DNA of 64,000 nt from assembly GCF_029338575.1 (NCBI RefSeq), contig NZ_CP119992.1:1364001-1428000 (forward strand), in the 5' to 3' direction. Below the pieces are notes generated by a model. The model saw nothing but the letters and a program-made list of their open reading frames with translations, made no database searches and was not told the DNA's origin. The stretch is from Halomarina halobia. GTDB taxonomy: Archaea; Halobacteriota; Halobacteria; Halobacteriales; Haloarculaceae. A program made the translations under genes and the position numbers. Positions 12,298 through 49,194 of this stretch are shown here, piece after piece (within the stretch, counting starts at the first letter, position 1; each line of letters begins with the position of its first letter).

Positions 12298-12789
12298 ATG
12301 AGCGTCACGCGACAGGTGACGTCCGATCACCAGCTCGCCCGGCTCATCCAGATCGGGATGGTGCTGGAGGAGGTCGTCGAGGCCCGGTCGGCGAAGCACG
12401 CCCAGACGATGGACGACGACGAACTCGACCCCGAGGTGCACGCGCTCCTCGAACACGCCGCCGAGGAGTCGGCCGAGCACCGCGAGCGCCTCGAGGCGCT
12501 CGTCGACGAACTGGACGCCGAGCCGGTGCCGTTCGACCAGATCGAGGCGCTCGTGGAGGCGCAGTACGGGCAGACGAAGCCCGAGGACTTCGACGGCGTC
12601 CTCTACGACCAGCTCTGTAACGAGGAGACGGCGTACAAGTTCTACGACGACGTCATCGCCGCCGTGGAGGCCTCGGAGACGACGTTCAGCATCGACACGG
12701 AACGGCTCGTCGCGGTCCTCGCGGAGATCCGCGAGGAGGAGGCCGAGGGCGTCGAGGCGGTGACCAGGCTCATGGAGACCCGAGCATGA
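12298..12789 (+). CDS. ferritin-like domain protein
   Basis: A 163-residue four-helix-bundle protein. Helix 1 has EEVVEARSAKHAQ, helix 2 EHAAEESAEHRERLE (an ExxH-like pair), helix 3 CNEETAYKFYDDVI (an EExxxxFYD pattern typical of diiron sites) and helix 4 EIREEEAEGVEAV. It is therefore a probable diiron or rubrerythrin-like protein for metal storage or peroxide defence. It overlaps the next gene by 4 bp (ATGA), so it is in one operon with a DtxR-family repressor. I chose the ATG at 12298, where coding character begins. Confidence 0.8.
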   Translation: MSVTRQVTSDHQLARLIQIGMVLEEVVEARSAKHAQTMDDDELDPEVHALLEHAAEESAEHRERLEALVDELDAEPVPFDQIEALVEAQYGQTKPEDFDGVLYDQLCNEETAYKFYDDVIAAVEASETTFSIDTERLVAVLAEIREEEAEGVEAVTRLMETRA

Positions 12790-13220
12790 ACACGGCCGAT
12801 CAGTACCTCAAGGCGATCTACCTCGTCCAGAAGGCGGAGGACGGACCCGCCGCGACCGGTCGCGTCGCGGACCTGCTCGACGTCAGCCCCGCCAGCGCCA
12901 ACGAGATGATCGGGAAACTCGAAGCGCGCGGTCTGGCCGATCACGAGAAGTACAAGGGCGTCTCGCTGACCGACGACGGCATCGTCCGCGCCCGCGACGT
13001 CCTCCAGAACTACTGCATCATCGAGCGGTTCCTCGTCGAGGTGCTCGACGTCGAGGAGTTCCGCGTCGAGGCGAAGGCCCTGGAGAGCGTCATCGACGAG
13101 ACGGTCGCGGAACGCCTCGACACCATCATCGACCGCGAACCGCAGTGCCCCGACTGTTTCGCCCCGGAACGCGACGTCTGCGCGCTGCTCGAAGCCGAGT
13201 ACCCCGAGATCGCGGACTGA
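12786..13220 (+). CDS. sirR: DtxR/SirR-family metal-dependent transcription regulator
   Basis: A 144-residue regulator. The winged-helix domain spans about residues 1-65 (DQYLKAIYLVQ, TGRVADLLDVSPASANEMIGKLEARGL, the recognition helix). The dimerization and metal-binding domain follows, with CIIERFLVEVLDVEE and later His-poor, Cys/Glu-rich candidates (EPQCPDCF, CALLEAEYPE). It lacks the SH3-like third domain of DtxR, which is normal for the short SirR/MntR form. It is coupled by ATGA overlap to the ferritin-like gene and probably represses the pair through the palindrome at 12231. It would sense iron or manganese. Confidence 0.88.
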   Translation: MNTADQYLKAIYLVQKAEDGPAATGRVADLLDVSPASANEMIGKLEARGLADHEKYKGVSLTDDGIVRARDVLQNYCIIERFLVEVLDVEEFRVEAKALESVIDETVAERLDTIIDREPQCPDCFAPERDVCALLEAEYPEIAD

Positions 13221-13265
13221 CGGCTCGAAGGCTTGAAGTACGGCGGCGCGGAACCTCCGACCGTC

Positions 13266-13441
13266 GTCCCGCGGTGGTGAGCGAATCGTTAGATTCGCGA
13301 GGTACACGGGACGAACGAGGTGAAGTCCCGTGGTGGTGAGCGAATCCAGCGGGTTCGCGAACGACACGGGGCTGAGAGGGCGAAACGAACGAAGTCCCGT
13401 GGTGGTGAGCAAACCCATCGGGTTTGCGAGGTACACGGGAC
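13266..13441 (+). repeat. tandem array of three tRNA-like hairpin units
   Basis: Three units (13266-13312, 13325-13372, 13394-13441) share one plan: outer stem GTCCCGTG/CACGGGAC, the spacer GTGGTGA, an inner stem, a 3-4 nt loop and a return spacer. The inner stems are GCGAATC/GATTCGC, GCGAATCC/GGGTTCGC and GCAAACCC/GGGTTTGC, so paired changes keep the stem. Most outer-stem changes keep pairing through G-U. The 5' arm copies the first bases of the tRNA-Gln gene 20 bp downstream (GTCCCGTGGTG). Linkers are purine-rich (GAACGAAG-like). No coding frame fits. The array could be transcribed with the tRNA. Confidence 0.75.
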
Positions 13442-13460
13442 GAGCGAACGAAGTGAGCGA

Positions 13461-13562
13461 AGTCCCGTGGTGTAGCGGCCAATCATAACGGCCTTTGGAC
13501 GCGTTCGGCGCTTCCGGCGCGGAGGTCAGCCGTTGACCCCGGTTCGAATCCGGGCGGGACTA
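13461..13562 (+). tRNA. tRNA-Gln(TTG) with intron
   Basis: The acceptor stem AGTCCCG (13461-13467) pairs with CGGGACT (13555-13561), with discriminator A at 13562. The anticodon stem ACGGC (13488-13492) pairs with GCCGT (13529-13533), and the loop gives anticodon TTG at 13495-13497. The T arm CCCCGGTTCGAATCCGGG is clear. A 29-31 nt intron interrupts the loop after position 37. An intron in tRNA-Gln of similar size is known from Haloferax. It reads in the same direction as the hairpin array upstream. Confidence 0.93.
13499..13527 (+). other. archaeal tRNA intron
   Basis: This segment lies between nucleotides 37 and 38 of the mature tRNA-Gln. It contains CGCGTTCGGCGCTTCCGGCGCG, which can fold back, and with the exons should form the bulge-helix-bulge cut by the archaeal splicing endonuclease. 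Exact splice positions could shift by one or two bases. Confidence 0.7.
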
Positions 13563-48988: not shown

Positions 48989-49058
48989 TAGCGGGAGGTA
49001 GATTTGAACCACGGTCGCTCACTCCGTTCGCTCCCTGATTCAAATTTACTCGGCGCTA
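48989..49058 (-). repeat. tRNA-like hairpin copying the initiator tRNA 3' end
   Basis: Read on the minus strand it ends with a copy of the last 20 bases of the adjacent tRNA-Met (TTCAAATCTACCTCCCGCTA). The other arm is complementary: outer TAGCG/CGCTA, inner TTTGAA/TTCAAA, with one mismatch in an 11-bp inner stem. The loop is low-complexity (GCTCACTCCGTTCGC on the plus strand). The plan parallels the tRNA-Gln array at 13266. A second palindrome (GTGGCGCAC/GTGCGCCAC, 49063-49113) lies between it and the tRNA. Confidence 0.65.
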
Positions 49059-49062
49059 CGCC

Positions 49063-49113
49063 GTGGCGCACGGCTCACGGCTCGCTTCGCTCCTCGTTCG
49101 ATGTGTGCGCCAC
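49063..49113. repeat. perfect palindrome beside tRNA-Met
   Basis: GTGGCGCAC (49063-49071) and GTGCGCCAC (49105-49113) form 9 base pairs around 33 nt. It is located 6 bp before the 3' end of the tRNA-Met gene and could terminate its transcript. Confidence 0.5.
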
Positions 49114-49119
49114 AGAAGG

Positions 49120-49194
49120 TAGCGGGAGGTAGATTTGAACTACCGATCTCCGGGTTATGAGCCCGGCGGAATCTCCTGGCTATCCCATCCCGCT
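49120..49194 (-). tRNA. initiator tRNA-Met(CAT)
   Basis: On the minus strand the 75-nt sequence begins AGCGGGATGGGATAGCC and ends CTACCTCCCGCTA. The acceptor stem AGCGGGA/TCCCGCT is complete; the anticodon loop GCTCATAAC gives CAT; the anticodon stem CCGGG/CCCGG has the three G-C pairs typical of initiator tRNA; the T arm is GTAGTTCAAATCTAC. There is no encoded CCA. The gene is divergent from the transposon-free spacer on its left and lies before the GtrA gene. Confidence 0.93.

Follow-up and report, generated by a model that had tools for sequence, protein, structure and literature searches.

The three hairpins that stand before tRNA-Gln in Halomarina halobia belong to a haloarchaeal and apparently unreported family of short units, which lie at the edges of tRNA genes and carry copies of the adjacent tRNA end in their outer arms. 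We see about an even chance that these units are small hairpin insertions, of about 55-66 bp, whose arms are templated by their target, via fold-back or template-switch synthesis.

The hairpin array before tRNA-Gln

In the stretch of 64,000 nucleotides of Halomarina halobia DNA analysed here (the window), a tRNA-Gln(TTG) gene with an intron occupies positions 13461..13562 of the + strand (Rfam RF00005, 49.3 bits); intron-aware ARAGORN also calls this locus, while the default mode misses the gene. Between it and a gene for a DtxR-type iron-dependent repressor (12786-13220) lies the hairpin array. The original prediction, made from the sequence of the window, had placed three hairpins here, and they are present, each folding far better than shuffled sequences. 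On the + strand, unit 1 (13265..13312; 59.3 bits) consists of GTCCCGCG, the inner stem GCGAATC-GATTCGC and CACGGGAC; unit 2 (13324..13372; 67.6 bits) of AGTCCCGTG, the inner stem GCGAATCC-GGGTTCGC and CACGGGGC; and unit 3 (13393..13441; 74.2 bits) of AGTCCCGTG, the inner stem GCAAACCC-GGGTTTGC and CACGGGAC. Against shuffles, the folding z scores of units 1, 2 and 3 are -4.8, -5.2 and -5.5 as RNA, and -3.2, -3.6 and -5.2 as DNA of the + strand. The units are followed, on the same strand, by spacer 1 (GAACGAGGTGA, 13313..13323), spacer 2 (TGAGAGGGCGAAACGAACGA, 13373..13392) and spacer 3 (GAGCGAACGAAGTGAGCGA, 13442..13460), the last of which is itself a small GA/GA hairpin with other copies in the genome.

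Each unit is built in the same order: a copy of tRNA nucleotides 1-12 (AGTCCCGTGGTG in tRNA-Gln), GA, the inner stem, GA, about 4 nt, an inverted copy and the spacer. In the window units the inner stem has 7-8 bp and a loop of 3-4 nt, and the inverted arm is an inverted copy of tRNA nucleotides 2-9, the acceptor strand. The outer stem had been equated with the tRNA-Gln acceptor stem; among the three window units this is exact only in unit 3, since the outer stem of unit 1 (GTCCCGCG/CACGGGAC) has one C.A mismatch and that of unit 2 one G.U (in CACGGGGC). The inner stems differ between units and keep their pairing, as had been described, and "a hairpin using tRNA sequence" was the right description.

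The position of the promoter fits an array inserted at the start of the tRNA. A promoter matrix was built from 41 other tRNA genes in the same genome, in which the motif mostly starts about 43 nt upstream of the tRNA. At tRNA-Gln its best match, a promoter-like motif of BRE/TATA type at 13222..13237 (+), lies 44 nt upstream of the first tRNA-start copy and not of the tRNA itself. Similarly, at other unit loci the distance from promoter to first copy equals that from promoter to tRNA at loci lacking units (43-44 nt). The array thus sits where leader RNA would be, and from this spacing we consider that units at 5' ends are probably transcribed as a structured pre-tRNA leader, which RNase P would remove.

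Filled and empty sites in related genomes agree with this arrangement. Comparison of Natronococcus jeotgali with Natronococcus sp. A-GB7 reveals 66 nt inserted where the tRNA begins, in the interval between it and the promoter, and two Halorussus species differ in the same manner. On either side of the inserts the first 12 nt of the tRNA appear as direct repeats, and the tRNA itself is left whole; the inserts, at about 54-66 bp, are non-coding and too short to hold an integrase or any other gene.

A family at both edges of haloarchaeal tRNA genes

The same units occur in relatives upstream of tRNA-Gln. They also precede tRNA-Gly, and there the outer stem corresponds to tRNA-Gly instead. A covariance model, R1, built from 26 tRNA-Gln units, matches in 147 of 292 haloarchaeal genomes, and nowhere outside Halobacteriales in the sampled phylum. 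Practically all retrieved matches are in sense orientation directly upstream of tRNA-Gln or tRNA-Gly (a few ARAGORN 'Glu' and 'Stop' calls at these loci start with tRNA-Gln sequence), and the gap between unit and tRNA is mostly 10-25 nt. A survey of 80 named records found by a tRNA-Gln pattern places units at roughly 19 of 66 haloarchaeal tRNA-Gln loci (a hand-made list, with two or three doubtful cases) and lists none of 12 non-haloarchaeal tRNA-Gln loci as unit-bearing. Within the Halomarina halobia genome, a general core pattern with zero mismatches finds tRNA-Gln only; when one or two mismatches are allowed, the totals are 57 and 67 against 39 and 34 for the control, the matches being mostly unrelated by eye. 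Two exact core patterns scanned against viral contigs gave no match.

The arms follow the target. In 110 of 116 units the first 12 nt of the unit's own tRNA are matched at at least 10 positions, with 12 acceptor strings tracked as scored, a few of which reflect tRNA calls offset by one base. While the outer arm varies with the adjacent tRNA, the core is common to the tRNA-Gln units, the tRNA-Gly units and the antisense class described below.

Covariation reaches far past the three units of the window. Among the 26 tRNA-Gln units, 95% of pair cells are paired, with double changes at 8/8 inner pairs; across 120 distinct units, 96.9% of cells are paired (81% when shuffled and 31-49% when slid) and changes on both sides occur in 14 of 16 pairs. 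GA and GA bracket the inner stem in 114 of 118 units. Between Halomarina halobia and a congener (genome G004), the spacers are kept and the inner stems altered by paired substitutions. This bears out the earlier view that the pattern is not decay and that a folded single strand is conserved. By eye, neither a kink-turn nor a bulge-helix-bulge fits the internal loop consistently.

Weak R1 matches led to hairpins on the opposite strand at the 3' end of tRNA-Ala, tRNA-Arg and tRNA-Ser. A second model, R2, built from these 3' antisense hairpins, matches in 171 of 292 haloarchaeal genomes, and all 32 assignable matches lie where a tRNA-Arg, -Ala or -Ser gene has its 3' end, on its antisense strand and pointing inward. 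Pairing in this mirror class reaches 98.3%, with double changes in 13 of 16 pairs. A tRNA-like promoter at -60..-41 is found for 50 of 100 5' units versus 2 of 48 3' antisense units.

Several further loci carry related or unusual hairpins. The tRNA-Gly of Halomarina halobia (L062) has, 60 nt upstream, a degenerate unit-like hairpin with a GCGCCGT copy, which the model did not score. Before tRNA-Gln of Halomicroarcula sp. SYNS111 (L163) we found an apparent core-deleted unit, with direct and inverted copies abutting (AGTCCCGCGGGAC). At L326/L386 (genome G279) and L027 (genome G021), unit-like hairpins have GGTGAGC...GCGA cores and lie away from any detected tRNA.

A commoner class of 3' repeats exists in the Halomarina halobia genome. 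A copy of the gene's own 3' end lies within 400 nt downstream of 21 of 43 tRNA genes, compared with 1.1 expected from the ends of other tRNAs. About half of the tRNA genes are followed by 1-3 such units, ending in a copy of the gene's own T-arm and acceptor 3' strand; an inverted T-arm copy precedes each, many are tandem, and interior modules are common to different tRNAs. In the window, an example lies at about 48989-49119, beside tRNA-Met (49120-49194, - strand). These repeats, most of which have GA on the outward strand, are either a relative of different polarity or the product of a separate process. In addition, another repeat of this genome has at least 11 dispersed copies, in which a TATA-like GATATAAAGGTACGG stands upstream of several GA/GA-mismatch hairpins and T-runs; its appearance is that of a structured element present in multiple intergenic copies, or of an ncRNA. 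Outside haloarchaea, a member of the Woesearchaeota and another DPANN archaeon (L145, L174) have a near-exact copy of the tRNA-Gln 3' end 72-116 nt downstream, with a hairpin between.

The folding strand and the competing explanations

Wobble pairs indicate which strand folds; a constraint on the tRNA transcript would be expected to put the excess of G-U over A-C on the transcript's own strand at both ends. Read on the strand running into the tRNA gene, deduplicated 5' units have G-U to A-C ratios of 51:11 in outer stems and 17:0 in inner stems, and 3' antisense units have 15:2; most of these counts come from covariance-model units, the pair priors of the model favor G-U over A-C, and related sequences share ancestry, so that the counts do not represent independent events. 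Among 3' units obtained without use of the model, seven intact ones, read by eye, give 5:0 on the inward strand (automatic totals for this set take in false units too), and the small model-free 5' set gives 24:9, or 23:5 without the loop-closing pair. The bias is not confined to the transcribed strand, as the 3' antisense units, in small numbers, are biased on the strand opposite the tRNA transcript. Because G-U exceeds A-C on the inward strand at both ends, the constraint follows that strand, which on the 3' side is not the one transcribed with the tRNA. Together with the scarcity of tRNA-like inward promoters at 3' ends, this favors folding of single-stranded DNA over a constraint on RNA, in which case 5' transcription would be a by-product.

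The main rival of a DNA hairpin insertion is a functional RNA leader of pre-tRNA-Gln and pre-tRNA-Gly, selected to tune maturation, with a bistable inverted arm that pairs either with its own copy or with the 5' strand of the real tRNA and so gates RNase P. The place of the units between promoter and tRNA with conserved spacing, the strong covariation and the tolerance of 5' units for G-U and not A-C on the transcribed strand all speak for it, as does equilibrium folding, which for 62 of 90 loci gives a probability above 0.5 that the inverted arm pairs with the 5' strand of the tRNA, in a calculation that ignores modification, tertiary contacts and high salt. However, the same core is found antisense at 3' ends, with the same strand bias and without a tRNA-like inward promoter, and the occurrence of the units is patchy at haloarchaeal tRNA-Gln loci, as the survey above indicates. 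Where a copy departs from the tRNA, pairing between the inverted arm and the tRNA is retained, which a recent change of the copy also explains; and when last and distal units are compared, the copies drift only slightly more in the distal ones, which gives no clear support for a bistable switch. We regard the RNA leader as possible but rather unlikely. The suggestion that the units act as decoys of RNase P, RNase Z or a synthetase has no specific support: the partner of nucleotide 1 is often mismatched, the internal loop does not resemble that of a tRNA, and the mirror class, at 3' ends, runs antisense and lacks a tRNA-like inward promoter. Nor do the window units look like an acceptor minihelix, as units 1 and 3 are unpaired at position 1 and none ends like a tRNA 3' end. 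A small RNA, also suggested, may be formed by the 5' units, sited as they are between promoter and tRNA.

Other explanations fare less well. Direct repeats that reproduce the tRNA end precisely, tandem arrays, a regenerated tRNA and filled and empty sites speak for a dedicated integrase (a tyrosine recombinase or a Cas1/casposase-like enzyme) that places short DNA hairpins at the ends of tRNAs and duplicates its target, and tRNA genes are the main archaeal integration targets, with some integrases using the 5' half (PMC8371274). Yet the units encode nothing, and an ordinary integrase leaves unexplained an inverted copy that tracks the target; we consider this reading improbable. More doubtful still, and disfavored, is the idea of neutral relics of tandem tRNA gene duplication, in which a single hairpin would be all that is left of the upstream copy's body: both acceptor strands are indeed present in each unit, and one Halalkalicoccus unit (L171) ends in GGGACTA like a tRNA 3' end, but the same core is shared by tRNA-Gln units, tRNA-Gly units and the 3' antisense class, 97% pairing would not persist, and insert length is near constant. 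Finally, a GA-rich spacer motif also occurs elsewhere in the genome, as chance or GC-biased low-complexity sequence might produce, but drift of this kind, named with the original prediction as what could explain the pattern away, is refuted by the shuffle and slide controls and by the lack of model matches outside Halobacteriales in the sampled phylum.

Target-templated hairpin insertion thus remains our preferred explanation. What we observe is the build of the units, their distribution and covariation, the tracking of the target, the filled and empty sites, the polarity of the strands and the spacing to the promoter; the folding of single-stranded DNA, fold-back copying and transcription are inferred. 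Insertion would duplicate the tRNA end, as the 12-nt direct repeat at 5' ends, and bring in the GA/GA-bracketed core and a spacer; the same tRNA end, copied in part and in inverted form, would make the outer arm match the host tRNA. When single-stranded, the DNA strand that runs 5' to 3' into the tRNA gene would fold into the hairpin, and the core could be the point where synthesis turns round and copies back the tRNA end, by fold-back or template switch, alone or after an insertion enzyme. Repeated rounds and tandem duplication would then yield arrays whose arms are kept complementary, and at the 5' ends of tRNA-Gln and tRNA-Gly the resulting leader array would be cut off by RNase P. Against this explanation, the inner stems have kept their pairing through long divergence, for which selection accounts more easily than plain mutation pressure does, and a universal inward polarity is contradicted by the commoner 3' repeat class, with its outward GA.

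Relation to known elements and significance

Mobile DNA lands in tRNA genes more often than anywhere else. Quasi-palindrome template-switch mutation and inverted triplication of the ODIRA type produce direct, inverted and direct copies in turn, which explains restored complementarity. The units share this architecture and differ in their 10-20 nt scale, their location at tRNA ends and their conserved, shared core hairpin. Target duplication at a tRNA, a feature of Casposon/Cas1-type integration, is likewise seen for the units. Like structured RNA leaders, they are conserved, covarying hairpins between promoter and gene; unlike them, their gene is a tRNA, their stem copies that tRNA, and they have an antisense mirror class at the 3' ends of tRNA genes.

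Archaeal tyrosine-recombinase elements have their attachment sites in tRNA genes, a 5'-half attB being known for pTN3-like integrases (PMC8371274), and resemble the units in tRNA-gene insertion, a duplicated tRNA segment and an intact tRNA; in contrast to such integrative elements, the units are about 54-66 bp, non-coding and tandem, hold an inverted copy of the target and have no integrase gene. The MITE, PATE and SMR repeats of Haloquadratum (PMC3119063) are transposase-free and, like the units, short, non-coding and haloarchaeal, but they have inverted terminal or, in PATEs, near-terminal palindromic repeats and occupy many sites, whereas the units keep to tRNA edges and take their outer arms from the target. 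Membership of the MITE or SMR classes, with intrinsic terminal inverted repeats and wide targets, does not suit arms that change with the adjacent tRNA at sites that are tRNA edges; and derivation from PATE or IS200-IS605 elements, which implies no target duplication, does not suit inserts flanked by a 12-nt copy of the tRNA start. Rfam, run over the surroundings of the units and related loci, returned nothing but tRNA above the curated threshold, and the open-access literature that we searched (subscription papers being outside its scope) holds no description of a tRNA-edge hairpin family, in line with the original prediction, which knew of none.

It is tempting to speculate, with somewhat less than even confidence, that this is a haloarchaea-wide genetic element partly self-built from its target, in which a GA-bracketed hairpin enters a tRNA edge, copies the tRNA end into both arms and spreads among tRNA genes without a terminal sequence of its own. 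A large family of tiny inserts with target-following arms is a natural archive of the ways in which hairpins of single-stranded DNA arise, are copied and persist, and species pairs with and without units are available for comparison. Moreover, Haloferax gibbonsii, from a genetically tractable genus, carries one unit (L175), which makes the DNA and RNA readings testable. Should the 5' units function as RNA, tRNA genes would be under the direct control of conserved, structured leaders.
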